IMG/VR virus record: IMGVR_UViG_3300044825_002018
Coordinates: 1-43,263 of that record
Source of the DNA: a virus
DNA length: 43,263 nt
Strand: one strand, 5' to 3'
Shown here piece after piece: positions 5,449 to 43,263 of this stretch. Below the pieces are notes generated by a model. The model made no database searches and had not been told where the DNA came from. It was given only the letters and a program-made list of their open reading frames with translations. A program made the position numbers and the translations under genes. The first letter of the stretch is position 1. Every line of letters starts with the position of its first letter.

Positions 5449-7344
5449 TTAGGAATCGTTATTAGTCGATTTACCTAAACCTCTCCAATCTATAGCTTTT
5501 GCCGCGAAATCAAGTTTCATTTTGATTTGTACGCCATCCACCAAGAAACCGTTTTGTGTAGTAATTTGAGGACCCTCTTCGCCAGTCAAGTAAGCATACT
5601 CAATAGTATCAATTACGTTTGGCGATTCAGCTCCAAAGTAAGTAGAATCAGTAATTCTAGGATCTACAATCAATGAAGTTGAACCAGCAAAAATATTTGC
5701 AGTTGTCGCGCTATCACCTTGAATCGGAAGTAACATTCTTTTTGCGTCCACTTCAAGCTCTGGCCCTACAATCAAGAATTTTGGATATAGTGCCATTGGT
5801 GAGCCTTTGAGTTGCTTTTGAGTTCTAAACATTTTCACGAAATGCTTAAAGTGATTAAGCGTAGCGTGATAGTTCAAAAGTAAAGCGTCTGTAAGGTTTG
5901 CGTGAGCTACTGAAAATAAAGCGTTACCATCAGCCATGTTTGGGTTGCCTATAAGAATCGCGTAAACGATGTCTGACTCTAAGCGCGCCGCCGCCGCTCC
6001 CATTTGAGATGGGATTCTACCAAAAGCCGATAAATCATCGTTAATGATTGTTTGACGAGTGATAGAAATGATTTCGCCGTAAGTTGATAAGCTGTAAGTT
6101 TCTTTCCCATCGCTGACTGAAGCCTGCTTGAATTCGCCGCCCTCGGTTACAATCGTTGGAGTAGGAACTTCACTTAGTTGAACTCTGTTTACTGGTTTGA
6201 AATCGTTTAAAGTAACTCTTCTACAAAATGGTAAAAAAGTTCTTTCGGTTTCGTCGTAAGCTCTTCTAAGTGTTTTATTTGCTACGTTTGCCAAAATATT
6301 TGGAAAATCGCTAGTAGAATGCATAGCAAACTCTGCAATTTTGCTTTCTGACATATCTACAATATTTGCGCCATTTCTACCAGCGAAAAATTTCGCCATT
6401 TCCATTAAGCGCATATTATTGAATTTGTTTCCAGCTTCAAATTTGCCATATCCAGCTCTTGCTTCAAGTGCTGACATCGCCGCTTTCTCGATTTTTTCGC
6501 TTTCGTTTTCGCCTACTGAAATTGCGCTTACGTTTGAATTAACTTCAAACTTTTTAGCTTTTTCAGCAAGTAAATCAAACGCTTCTTTGCGGACATCATC
6601 CACGGTTTTGTTTGATTTGATTTTATCAATTGCAAAATCGCTTCCAAGTTCGCCAGTTAGTGCGATCTTAAAAATTTCATCTGCTCTTTGTTTTTCAGAA
6701 TTGATCGCTTCAGCTTTGATTTTTTCTAGATCAAGGGCCGCTGAAGCTAAATTCTTATCAGTTTCCATTTTTTGCTCCTCTTTTATTTCTTCGACAACGC
6801 CCGTTGCGATGTCAAAAGTTTGTGCTTGCGGATCCGCTGGAGAAGCTACAAAACTAATTTCGTAGGGCTCCCAGCGAGTTATTTCTAAAGTGCGATATTT
6901 GTCGCCCTCTTGAGTAACGTCTTTAGTACCATGAATGAAAAAACCTGGAGATACAAAACGAATTATTCCCGCTTTTATATCTTCTACTATGGGTTTAACC
7001 TCTTCACGATTCGAAAATTTTATAGTTGCTTCTGATTCAGTCGCTGAGCCTGGAACCACGGCCCCGAGCACTTTTGATAATTCGCTAGTATTATGTGAAT
7101 CTACCACCGCCGCGCCATTGTTTAATCTTGTAAGATCTACTGATCCTGGAGCTGAGCTTAATTGCATATAAAAATACTCATCGCGCGCGTAAGAATAACG
7201 TAAAACTTTATTGTTATTGGTATATCTTACTTTTATGGTGTTTTGCTCTGTATCAAAGGTTTCTGGATCAAGCGTAAACATTTGACTAGAAAATTTTTCA
7301 TCTTTTATATTATTAGTTCCGAAATAATCTTTTACTAAATCCAT
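5449..7344 (-). CDS. Fused prohead protease and major capsid protein
   Basis: 631 aa from the preferred ATG at 7344; an upstream GTG at 7362 would add six residues. Numbering from the GTG, residues ~25-190 are an HK97/S78-type prohead protease: the catalytic His is in VVDSHNTSE (H90) and the Ser in the YEISFVASPAD motif (S170 is the best candidate). A charged, Lys/Glu-rich linker at ~195-290 looks like a scaffold (delta) domain. Residues ~295-637 are an HK97-fold capsid protein (AMHSTSDFPNILANVANKTL, VTEGGEFKQASVSDGKETYS). Fusing protease, scaffold and capsid removes the need for separate genes; the protease is expected to release the capsid portion. No Shine-Dalgarno is visible; TATAAT ends six bases before the ATG. 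The portal gene lies just upstream. Confidence 0.85.
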   Translation of the reverse strand: MDLVKDYFGTNNIKDEKFSSQMFTLDPETFDTEQNTIKVRYTNNNKVLRYSYARDEYFYMQLSSAPGSVDLTRLNNGAAVVDSHNTSELSKVLGAVVPGSATESEATIKFSNREEVKPIVEDIKAGIIRFVSPGFFIHGTKDVTQEGDKYRTLEITRWEPYEISFVASPADPQAQTFDIATGVVEEIKEEQKMETDKNLASAALDLEKIKAEAINSEKQRADEIFKIALTGELGSDFAIDKIKSNKTVDDVRKEAFDLLAEKAKKFEVNSNVSAISVGENESEKIEKAAMSALEARAGYGKFEAGNKFNNMRLMEMAKFFAGRNGANIVDMSESKIAEFAMHSTSDFPNILANVANKTLRRAYDETERTFLPFCRRVTLNDFKPVNRVQLSEVPTPTIVTEGGEFKQASVSDGKETYSLSTYGEIISITRQTIINDDLSAFGRIPSQMGAAAARLESDIVYAILIGNPNMADGNALFSVAHANLTDALLLNYHATLNHFKHFVKMFRTQKQLKGSPMALYPKFLIVGPELEVDAKRMLLPIQGDSATTANIFAGSTSLIVDPRITDSTYFGAESPNVIDTIEYAYLTGEEGPQITTQNGFLVDGVQIKMKLDFAAKAIDWRGLGKSTNNDS

Positions 7345-7366
7345 AATTTTATTATATACCACTATT

Positions 7367-12776: not shown

Positions 12777-13307
<531 letters not shown>

Positions 13308-13336
13308 TTGACCATTTCCACCTAAAGATTTACAAT
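13308..13336 (+). promoter_or_regulatory. Sigma70-like promoter for a leaderless plus-strand message
   Basis: TTGACC (13308-13313), a spacer of exactly 17 bases, then TACAAT (13331-13336). The ATG at 13344 begins seven bases after the -10 box, so the expected transcription start falls at or next to the A of the start codon. There is no Shine-Dalgarno. Confidence 0.65.
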
Positions 13337-13343
13337 ATTTTTG

Positions 13344-13550
13344 ATGGCATTGGAAGCAGTAGCAATAAATCGTTTGAGTACAGAATTACCAATAATGGTT
13401 TTATTTCTGGTTGCTATCATAGCTTTTTTGTGTTTTGGTCTTTACTCTTTGTACTGGGTTTTGCGTGCGGAGCGCAAGTTTTGGTTAGAATCAAACAAAA
13501 ATTTGCAAGATCGCATAGATTCTTTACTTGATTCTATTCACCATATATAA
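13344..13550 (+). CDS. Small single-pass membrane protein with coiled-coil tail
   Basis: 68 aa from ATG 13344 (a TTG one codon earlier is also in frame). A hydrophobic segment at ~15-40 (LPIMVLFLVAIIAFLCFGLY) is followed by a charged, helical tail (RAERKFWLESNKNLQDRIDS). It is one of only four plus-strand genes in the window and has its own promoter with no ribosome-binding site. The next plus-strand gene has the same architecture, so the two may act together. Inner-membrane spanin, anti-holin or superinfection-exclusion roles would all fit this shape; none is shown. Not recognised as a member of a known family. Confidence 0.55.
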   Translation: MALEAVAINRLSTELPIMVLFLVAIIAFLCFGLYSLYWVLRAERKFWLESNKNLQDRIDSLLDSIHHI

Positions 13551-13551
13551 T
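13523..13551 (+). promoter_or_regulatory. Second leaderless-type promoter, inside the end of the first plus-strand gene
   Basis: TTTACT (13523-13528), 17 bases, then TATAAT (13546-13551), with the ATG at 13558 six bases after the -10 box and no Shine-Dalgarno. The spacing repeats that of the promoter at 13308-13336. The -35 is imperfect. Confidence 0.45.
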
Positions 13552-13557
13552 AATTTT

Positions 13558-13791
13558 ATGGCATTTGAAATTGCGCTTATTACTCTGATTCTATCTCTTA
13601 CACTGGCTGGATCTGTCGCCGCCAAAGTATTAAAAATAAAATCAGAGCTTGATATGGAGCGCGTCAAAGTTCTTGAAGTTCACAAAAAAATTGATCTGGA
13701 GCTTGATCGTTTAAATCAAGCCCGCGCAAGCCAAAATGTAATTAACATAAACAAAAAGCCCGCCAGCAAGCAAAATCAAAAGACTTGCTAA
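13558..13791 (+). CDS. Small single-pass membrane protein with long helical tail
   Basis: 77 aa from ATG 13558; an upstream TTG/ATA in frame is less likely. The N-terminus (MAFEIALITLILSLTLAGSV) is hydrophobic and membrane-spanning, followed by a heptad-like helix (KVLKIKSELDMERVKVLEVH, KKIDLELDRLNQA) and a Lys/Asn-rich tail. Membrane anchor plus coiled coil is the layout of inner-membrane spanins and of several phage exclusion proteins, but no specific family is recognised. Its last 81 bases overlap, tail to tail, a minus-strand membrane-protein gene (13711-13923). Its partner is the gene just upstream. Confidence 0.5.
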   Translation: MAFEIALITLILSLTLAGSVAAKVLKIKSELDMERVKVLEVHKKIDLELDRLNQARASQNVININKKPASKQNQKTC

Positions 13792-13923
13792 GCCTAAAGC
13801 AATTTTATTTCCGCTGGATCCAGGGCCAAAAAGTATTTCAGTTTTAATATTTTCTCTCATATCTTTTTTGACTGGTTTATTTTCTCTAATGTTCCGAAAA
13901 TTATATTTTTTTATTACTGGCAT
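13711..13923 (-). CDS. Small membrane protein with C-terminal transmembrane segment
   Basis: 70 aa. ATG 13923 is chosen because GGAG lies nine bases upstream; an in-frame ATG at 13938 lacks this. The first ~40 residues are basic and polar (IKKYNFRNIRENKPVKKDMR); the last ~30 are hydrophobic (ALGLASLLILLAGGLFVYVN), ending CAGLI. It follows a 31-aa hydrophobic peptide and a secreted protein in one operon. Its 3' end overlaps the plus-strand gene 13558-13791 by 81 bases. No family is recognised; a lysis-accessory (holin-like or spanin-like) function is possible. Confidence 0.5.
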   Translation of the reverse strand: MPVIKKYNFRNIRENKPVKKDMRENIKTEILFGPGSSGNKIALGLASLLILLAGGLFVYVNYILACAGLI

Positions 13924-13928
13924 AAAAT

Positions 13929-14024
13929 TTAACTCCATTTTTTCAAAAGAAACCCAAACAATATTAAAGCCATCGCATTTAATGAGTGCACCATTTGCGC
14001 GCTGAAAAGCTCAAAATTACTCAT
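13929..14024 (-). CDS. 31-aa hydrophobic peptide, translationally coupled
   Basis: ATG 14024 to TAA 13929. The product starts MSNFELFSAQMVHSLNAMAL and ends ILFGFLLKKWS: a short amphipathic head, one hydrophobic helix and a basic tail. The ATG overlaps the last codons of the secreted-protein gene upstream, and the stop lies six bases before the start of the next membrane-protein gene, so it fits tightly into the operon. Peptides of this form can act as membrane disruptors or anti-holins, but the sequence alone does not decide. It is short enough that chance cannot be excluded. Confidence 0.4.
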   Translation of the reverse strand: MSNFELFSAQMVHSLNAMALILFGFLLKKWS

Positions 14025-14754: not shown

Positions 14755-14763
14755 TTTTATATT

Positions 14764-15009
14764 TTACTTTATTTTTTCCGCTTTGACAACGTAGCAATCG
14801 TGCCCGTTAAAAATATCAATCTCAAAGCTATTTATGGAACTGTCTCGATGGTAAACATTAGTTACCATTCTTTCCGCCAGCTCTCGTGCTGTTTGATTTT
14901 CGTAGATCTCGATGATGGTATTTAGCCAGAAAATACCGAGCGGATCGTCTGAAAGTCTGGCTTTTAGCGATTCAATCGCTTCTGTGAGTGTCTGCGTGTG
15001 TTTTTTCAT
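14764..15009 (-). CDS. Hypothetical small acidic protein
   Basis: 81 aa from ATG 15009 (MKKHTQTLTEAIESLKARLS); an upstream in-frame ATG at 15036 is inside the previous gene and less likely. The sequence is helical at the start, then DDPLGIFWLNTIIEIYENQT and a C-terminal part ending NGHDCYVVKAEKIK. No motif is recognised. It overlaps the end of the 14972-15220 gene by 38 bases and lies ten bases from the next gene, consistent with one polycistronic message of small phage genes. Confidence 0.5.
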   Translation of the reverse strand: MKKHTQTLTEAIESLKARLSDDPLGIFWLNTIIEIYENQTARELAERMVTNVYHRDSSINSFEIDIFNGHDCYVVKAEKIK

Positions 15010-24919: not shown

Positions 24920-24943
24920 GAGGTAAATTAATTTTATCATATA

Positions 24944-24995
24944 AATAAATACTAATAAATACTAAATTGACATAAATTACAAAGTGTAATATATT
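24944..24995 (+). promoter_or_regulatory. Strong leaderless-type promoter with two upstream 10-mers
   Basis: AATAAATACT is repeated exactly at 24944-24953 and 24954-24963, followed by a consensus -35 TTGACA (24967-24972), a 17-base spacer and TATATT (24990-24995). The ATG at 25003 begins seven bases after the -10, so transcription would start at or beside it. The 10-mers are one helical turn apart, a common arrangement for a regulator next to RNA polymerase. Confidence 0.75.
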
Positions 24996-25002
24996 TGTAC
25001 GT

Positions 25003-25752
25003 ATGAACAAAAAAAACGAATTAGCCTTAGATTTACAAACTAGCACCCAGCATACACCAGTTGAAATTTTACAAACCACTAAGCTTGCACCAGCAAGTTT
25101 ATATGAAGATTTTAGCGATCTGAGCCATGAAAACATTGGTTTTGACGATGTAAAATTTCCAGAAATTTTGTTAATCCAGGATAATTCAAAACATCTGCTG
25201 AAAAAATTTAAGGAAGCAGGAATTAAGCCTGGTGATTTTTTTAATAACGTAGAAAATACTTTTTCGCCTACTTTAAACGTAATTCCGTTTTATATAGCGA
25301 AATATTACGATGTTCGAATCCCAAAAGATAATTCTGATGTTAGCAATATTAAAATATTTCATCTTCCTAAGACTGCTCAAAAAGTACCAGAATCAAGCTA
25401 CTGGATGGATCCAAGCTTTGATTTTGAGCATAAGATTTATGAAACATTTTGCTATTTAGTTTTGCTTGAAAATATGACTTTTGCAAAAATCATATTTCAA
25501 AAGAGTCGCCATAAAATGGCATTGAAATGGAATACTTTAATCAAGAGCCGTGGATTTAACGCATTTAAATACAAATATCGTCTTCATGCTTTCGAAGATA
25601 CCCACAAAGGTAACACTTGGTTGAATATTGATATGACTTGCTTGGAAGAGCTTGATGCAAAAACTTTTAACCAGGTAGGAAAATTAGCGCGTGCTGTAAC
25701 GCCGCATATTTCTACCTTTATTATGGCCGAGGATTTTTTGCTTGAAGCGTAA
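25003..25752 (+). CDS. Putative ssDNA-binding / replication-recombination protein
   Basis: 249 aa. The layout KFPEILLIQDNSKHLLKKFK, AGIKPGDFFNNVENTF, LNVIPFYIAKYYDVR, then KIIFQKSRHKMALKWNTLIK and YKYRLHAFEDTH..WLNIDM matches a phage protein type with 'P.l.l.Q......K.GdffN...g....l.viP' followed by a conserved RHKMALKW-like helix; such proteins lie near recombination genes and are suspected ssDNA-binding proteins of the T7 gp2.5 kind. That assignment is by pattern only. The gene stands alone on the plus strand, with the strongest promoter in the window and no Shine-Dalgarno, so it is probably made very early. Confidence 0.45.
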   Translation: MNKKNELALDLQTSTQHTPVEILQTTKLAPASLYEDFSDLSHENIGFDDVKFPEILLIQDNSKHLLKKFKEAGIKPGDFFNNVENTFSPTLNVIPFYIAKYYDVRIPKDNSDVSNIKIFHLPKTAQKVPESSYWMDPSFDFEHKIYETFCYLVLLENMTFAKIIFQKSRHKMALKWNTLIKSRGFNAFKYKYRLHAFEDTHKGNTWLNIDMTCLEELDAKTFNQVGKLARAVTPHISTFIMAEDFLLEA

Positions 25753-29556: not shown

Positions 29557-29570
29557 AATTTCATTATAAC

Positions 29571-34774: not shown

Positions 34775-34788
34775 AAGCTAATTATAAA

Positions 34789-41511: not shown

Positions 41512-41571
41512 AATTTTATTTTACTATAAAAATTTAATTTTGCAAAATAATAAAAACTTGTAGTTATAGCT

Positions 41572-42918: not shown

Positions 42919-43263
42919 TCACCTTTCGTCTTTTATATTTAAAAGTTCTTCAATAGAATTAGCATTTTGAATTTGAAGTTTTAATTGATTTGCATTTTCA
43001 AAAATATTTTGACGTGTGGTTATAATTGTTTCTAAAATTTGATTTAATTGTTCTTGATTTTCAATAGAAAAAATCTTTCCGTCCACCAAAGATATAGTCT
43101 GAGGGAAATTCAAAAATTGATAATTAATACCAATAAAAATATTTTGTAAAATTCTATCAACATCAAAAGAATCAACAAATTTATTATTAGTAATTTCTAT
43201 TGGAGTTTCTAGTAAAGTGGTTGTTTTTAAATTCACTTGAGATAAAAAATATTCTTTTTGTAA
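42919..43263 (-). CDS. Carboxy-terminal part of the end-spanning appendage-region protein (truncated by window end)
   Basis: The frame is open from the window end down to the stop at 42919; the first Met inside (43236) is internal. The region matches 1-157 with four substitutions and continues as NFPQTISLVDGKIFSIENQE, QLNQILETIITTRQNIFENA and NQLKLQIQNANSIEELLNIK, a Gln/Asn-rich helix. Joined to the 1-358 part it gives a 181-aa protein. The helical C-terminus and the position among fibre genes suggest an assembly factor or a small appendage protein. Confidence 0.7.
   Translation of the reverse strand, partial: LQKEYFLSQVNLKTTTLLETPIEITNNKFVDSFDVDRILQNIFIGINYQFLNFPQTISLVDGKIFSIENQEQLNQILETIITTRQNIFENANQLKLQIQNANSIEELLNIKDER
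43107..43263. repeat. Terminal direct repeat, right copy
   Basis: Matches 1-157 in the same orientation with four substitutions and no gaps. See the left copy. Removing one copy gives a circle of 43,106 bases. Confidence 0.9.

Follow-up and report, generated by a model that had tools for sequence, protein, structure and literature searches.

TA-led leaderless genes lack a Shine-Dalgarno (SD) sequence and carry instead a TANNNT box centered some 12 bp ahead of the start codon (Zheng et al. 2011, PMC3160421), a pattern also described as the -10 motif of Deinococcus-Thermus (PMC12340547). In the archaeon cited for this class, single and promoter-proximal genes were leaderless and distal genes were SD led (PMC3160421). 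It is mainly 70S ribosomes, together with initiator tRNA, that translate such messages (PMC9031893). Among phages, leaderless mRNAs are described for lambda cI and for PY54 cI and cro (PMC4488713), and for Thermus phage phiYS40 many middle and late mRNAs are predicted to be leaderless, with a shift in the levels of IF2 and IF3 (cited in PMC3594737). Leaderless translation start is already known; its most familiar phage examples are repressor genes and the Thermus phages, and the mode has rarely been seen in phages on the scale predicted here.

This study analyzed a 43,263-base stretch of DNA (the window) that constitutes the IMG/VR record of an uncultured phage. As in bacterial TA-led genes, a TANNNT box was found at a fixed distance, about 10 to 12 nt upstream of the start, most often ending 6 or 7 nt before the ATG; an SD was mostly absent upstream (12776 being ambiguous), and the arrangement was seen at genes that have a promoter to themselves and not at operon-distal ones. 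Those genes belong to cellular genomes, whereas these belong to an AT-rich phage. As in phiYS40, many phage genes, late ones included, are predicted to be leaderless, but for phiYS40 the transcripts have been investigated and leaderless genes are widespread in the host phylum, whereas the present case is a prediction from sequence. The promoter abuts the ATG as at lambda cI and PY54 cI/cro, and the gene starting at 25003 is divergently transcribed with a palindrome in its promoter spacer; however, this gene falls in PF23977, which has no known repressor function, and structural genes are included here.

Sequence record and relatives

An imperfect 157-base terminal repeat occupies positions 1 to 157 and 43107 to 43263. 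The two open reading frames (ORFs) cut by the window ends look like parts of a single gene, which makes a complete genome with its ends joined in a circle probable, although the record is classed as linear. No close relative of the terminase was found among phage records (best match about 51%, Wolbachia phage WO) or in genome contigs (best 48%), and the best match in 385 genomes of one class was 51%. The 80 viral loci with related terminases were mostly GC-rich and little informative. Scans for relatives of genes A and C (starting at 13344 and 25003, respectively) returned close relatives alone, plus L009 and L010 for gene A.

A -10 hexamer at a fixed distance from start codons

When hexamers within one mismatch of TATAAT were counted against their distance to the ATG, the counts peaked at offsets 6 and 7. 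When starts were called without bias, taking the longest ORFs and the leftmost ATG of each, 10 of 58 carried such a hexamer at offset 6 or 7, compared with a mean of 2.3 and a maximum of 7 in 1,000 dinucleotide shuffles. Exact TATAAT occurred four times at offset 6, with 0.07 expected, and once at all the remaining offsets between 0 and 39. Three hexamers, those of 13558, 14754, and 9039, share bases with stop codons; without the two stop-overlapping hits of the unbiased set, the count was 8 versus 2.3 (P = 0.003), and that of exact matches was 3 versus 0.07 (P = 6e-5). Since the genome is AT-rich, -10-like hexamers are common in it, which counts against a leaderless reading. AT-richness as the sole cause was ruled against by the dinucleotide shuffles and by AT-rich control phages.

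Promoters were scored with a weight matrix covering the -35, the spacer, and a -10 at 5 to 8 nt before the ATG, built after the Escherichia coli consensus. The scores at 13344, 13558, and 25003 were 11.6, 10.0, and 12.6, whereas for 971 non-gene ATGs in the window the 99.9th percentile was 8.8. Sigma70-like matches overall were not enriched, with 5 found where shuffles predict 6.3; the mere presence of the boxes is thus no evidence, and it is their position that stands out. Across 12 window-relative pairs, the hexamer was 93% identical, a value somewhat favored because the pairs were chosen for window sites carrying the signature, compared with 59% in the interval from -13 to -30 and 49% in that from -31 to -45. 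At the threshold used, an SD was absent from 8 of 9 signature genes and from 28 of 54 other genes (p = 0.066), with 12776 ambiguous.

These data bear on an alternative in which the transcripts are leadered, arising from promoters farther upstream, and the hexamers beside the ATGs serve as ribosome entry sites that lack an SD, are rich in AT and weak in structure, and are read by S1-assisted initiation. An AT-rich genome, the absence of SDs from many phage genes, and the occurrence of a -35 at few minus-strand sites are all consistent with it. Against it stand a specific hexamer held at a fixed distance and conserved where the spacer is not, the concentration of exact TATAAT at offset 6, and the exchange of upstream sequence right up to the promoter in the relative L002. 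Leadered transcription was accordingly considered unlikely.

In control sequences, no peak at offsets 6 and 7 was found in Wolbachia phage WO or in part of T4; the T4 sequence peaked at offset 17, a peak attributed to the leadered late promoters of that phage. In Pelagibacter phage HTVC008M, the first 34 kb showed a weak excess (5 versus 1.5), but the following 50 kb did not, and the controls are to that extent imperfect. The signature was not found in two alphaproteobacterial genomes carrying related terminases.

Signature sites on the minus strand

The sequence signature is real, phage-wide, and broader than first described, occurring on both strands. The fused protease/major capsid gene (5449 to 7344; Pfam Phage_capsid_4 and Peptidase_S78) is preceded by TATAAT at 7351 to 7356, 6 nt before ATG 7344, and this box is conserved in L009, L010, and L012. 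The signature thereby corrects the start codon, the gene probably beginning at ATG 7344 instead of the callable GTG 7362. The first gene of the leftward terminase/head block has TAAAAT (12783 to 12788) 6 nt before ATG 12776. This -10 is kept in L003, L009, and L010, where the sequence upstream diverges; a GGTGG is also present, which could serve as a distant SD. Upstream of the 12776 promoter, a terminator-like hairpin, GGCTTGGTTAAGCC, followed by a T-rich run, lies on the minus strand at 12983 to 12996 and could separate two leftward transcription units.

The tail-fibre-like gene starting at ATG 29556 has TATAAT at 29563 to 29568, at a distance of 6 nt. The arrangement TTAGGTTATAAT-6-ATG is kept in L002 after unrelated upstream sequence and also stands before a different gene in L114. 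The same joining of a conserved promoter-ATG unit to unrelated upstream sequence was observed at 25003. For the baseplate wedge gene (GP46; ATG 34774), TATAAT at 34781 to 34786 lies 6 nt upstream and is conserved in L113 and L114. The DUF2635 gene has TAAAAT (41518 to 41523) 6 nt before ATG 41511, with TAAAAT in L113 and TATAAT in L114, each at 6 nt and with dissimilar upstream sequences. TATATT at 366 to 371, 7 nt before ATG 358, was compared with the near-identical L116 alone. At 14761 to 14789, TTGTCA, a 17-nt spacer, and TAAAAT stand 6 nt before ATG 14754 (score, 11.5) and are kept in L003; this site is confounded because its hexamer includes the upstream stop codon. Most minus-strand sites showed a -10 without a clear -35.

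Genes A and B

For the plus-strand starts at 13344, 13558, and 25003, the first-pass annotation had described a -10 box 6 to 7 bases before the ATG with a 17-base spacer to the -35 and no SD. The boxes and distances proved exact; no SD pairing was found at 13344 or 13558, and that at 25003 amounted to only -1.8 kcal at 14 nt. The annotation's further proposal that these messages are leaderless is well supported by sequence and comparison at 13344 and 25003, whereas at 13558 it is possible but confounded.

Gene A (13344 to 13550, plus strand) encodes 68 amino acids with a hydrophobic, membrane-like stretch and has a probable leaderless start. Its promoter consists of TTGACC (13308 to 13313), 17 nt, and TACAAT (13331 to 13336), 7 nt before ATG 13344. 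The promoter is identical in L003, with one substitution between the -10 and the ATG; the distant L009 and L010 have TAAAAT-6-ATG in its place, with no recognizable -35. The orthologues are 96% (L003) and 46% (L009 and L010) identical, with a conserved N terminus. In the divergent intergenic region at 12777 to 13343, three copies of GCCACCC were found that occur nowhere else in the window, and the equivalent place in L009 and L010 contains repeated TTGCCAC/GGCAAGT; these repeats are possibly a regulator, packaging, or origin site.

Gene B (13558 to 13791, plus strand; 77 amino acids, hydrophobic N terminus) begins 7 nt downstream of the gene A stop. Its orthologues are 95% (L003) and 45% (L009 and L010) identical, again with a conserved N terminus. 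A possible promoter at 13523 to 13551 consists of TTTACT (13523 to 13528), 17 nt, and TATAAT (13546 to 13551), 6 nt before the ATG, and this arrangement is conserved in L003, L009, and L010, making four phages with the window. The site is confounded, however, since the boxes sit within the 3' end of gene A and TATAAT is made up of the final bases of the last sense codon, the TAA stop, and one base beyond it; conservation of the hexamer is therefore partly forced. With a gap of 7 nt, kept in all four phages, coupled translation also explains 13558: gene B would have no promoter of its own, and ribosomes finishing gene A would reinitiate downstream. The retention of TATAAT-6-ATG and TTTACT-17 across 45% protein identity and a promoter score above the 99.9th percentile argue the other way. 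On balance, reinitiation was judged somewhat probable for gene B, coupling being at least as likely as a leaderless start, which is doubtful here. A conserved minus-strand gene (13711 to 13938) is convergent with gene B and overlaps its end by about 80 bases, both frames being kept in L009 and L010.

Gene C

Gene C (25003 to 25752, plus strand) encodes a Pam3_Gp34-like protein (PF23977; Pfam E = 5.6e-16) that is 94% identical in L002, and it too has a probable leaderless start. It is divergent from the gene at 24940. Its promoter comprises TTGACA (24967 to 24972), 17 nt, and TATATT (24990 to 24995), 7 nt before ATG 25003. The 36 bases from the -35 to the ATG differ from those of L002 at one position, and the sequence farther upstream is unrelated, so a distant upstream transcription start would need to have been replaced without loss. 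Within the spacer, the palindrome TTACAaagTGTAA (24977 to 24989) is the sole perfect copy in the window, with its middle base differing in L002, and is a possible operator. The predicted structure of the protein was unusable (pLDDT, 31), and the Pam3 genome paper yielded no role for gp34.

Operon position and strand

Under the strand-specific initiation first proposed, plus-strand genes alone would start in the leaderless mode, allowing expression when SD-dependent initiation is limiting. In a curated list of 63 starts (4 plus and 59 minus, with the capsid gene entered at GTG 7362), the signature was indeed carried by 3 of 4 plus-strand and 6 of 59 minus-strand genes (p = 0.008), although ATG 7344 would add one minus-strand case; the fourth plus-strand gene, 25755, lacks it. 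The contrast drawn with the minus strand held only roughly: SDs are many there, and 36 of the 63 listed starts are no more than 5 nt from an upstream stop, yet the -10-to-ATG spacing is shared by at least six genes of that strand. None of those 36 close starts carried the signature, compared with 9 of the 27 others (p = 0.0002), and the apparent strand bias is therefore mainly one of operon position, in agreement with the division between leaderless and SD-led genes reported for cellular genomes (PMC3160421). Among the 27, a residual difference (3/3 plus and 6/24 minus; p = 0.03) depends on three genes, of which one is doubtful; 14754 and 13558 lie 7 to 9 nt past a stop codon.

Strand specificity was not supported, since the same signature, conserved in relatives, was present at 7344 (the major capsid gene), 12776, 29556, 34774, and 41511 on the minus strand, and it is now considered highly improbable. 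What counts is whether a gene has its own promoter, not its strand. A strand difference in promoter class may persist, with full TTGAC -35 boxes at plus-strand 13344 and 25003 and no clear -35 at most leftward sites.

Proposed mode of initiation

With a promoter box 6 to 7 bases before the ATG, the message probably begins at the start codon. A -10 ending 6 nt before the ATG would direct a sigma70-type start to the A, and one ending 7 nt before it would direct the start to the A or the preceding base. The host sigma70-type RNA polymerase would thus produce leaderless mRNAs, perhaps with the help of a phage factor where the -35 is missing, as at most leftward structural genes; genes A and C have both boxes. 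On established principles, the 5'-terminal AUG would be initiated by 70S ribosomes, or by 30S subunits with IF2, no SD being needed and initiator tRNA taking part. Translation of the more distal genes of each transcription unit would use SD sequences or coupled starts, and gene B would either be coupled to gene A or have a second leaderless mRNA.

On this basis, some eight genes, distributed over the two strands and among them the main capsid gene, probably have messages whose first codon is the start codon. We consider it likely that many start-proximal promoters of this phage, with a -10 ending 6 to 7 nt before the ATG, give leaderless mRNAs, with distal genes SD led or coupled. A more elaborate version is offered tentatively, as possible but rather speculative. 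It holds that two promoter classes both start on the AUG: a sigma70-type -35/-10 class for a few rightward genes and a -10-only class, often with TRG just upstream and probably using a phage factor, for the late structural genes, including the capsid. Leaderless initiation would then be a main late mode, and the phage might alter the host ribosome in its favor. The TRG motif was found post hoc and partly overlaps stop codons.

Implications

A role for leaderless messages when 30S subunits are limiting is possible by analogy with phiYS40. If the leaderless reading is true, a phage of an unrelated lineage with leaderless capsid and baseplate genes would provide a test case for the competition of leaderless messages during infection.
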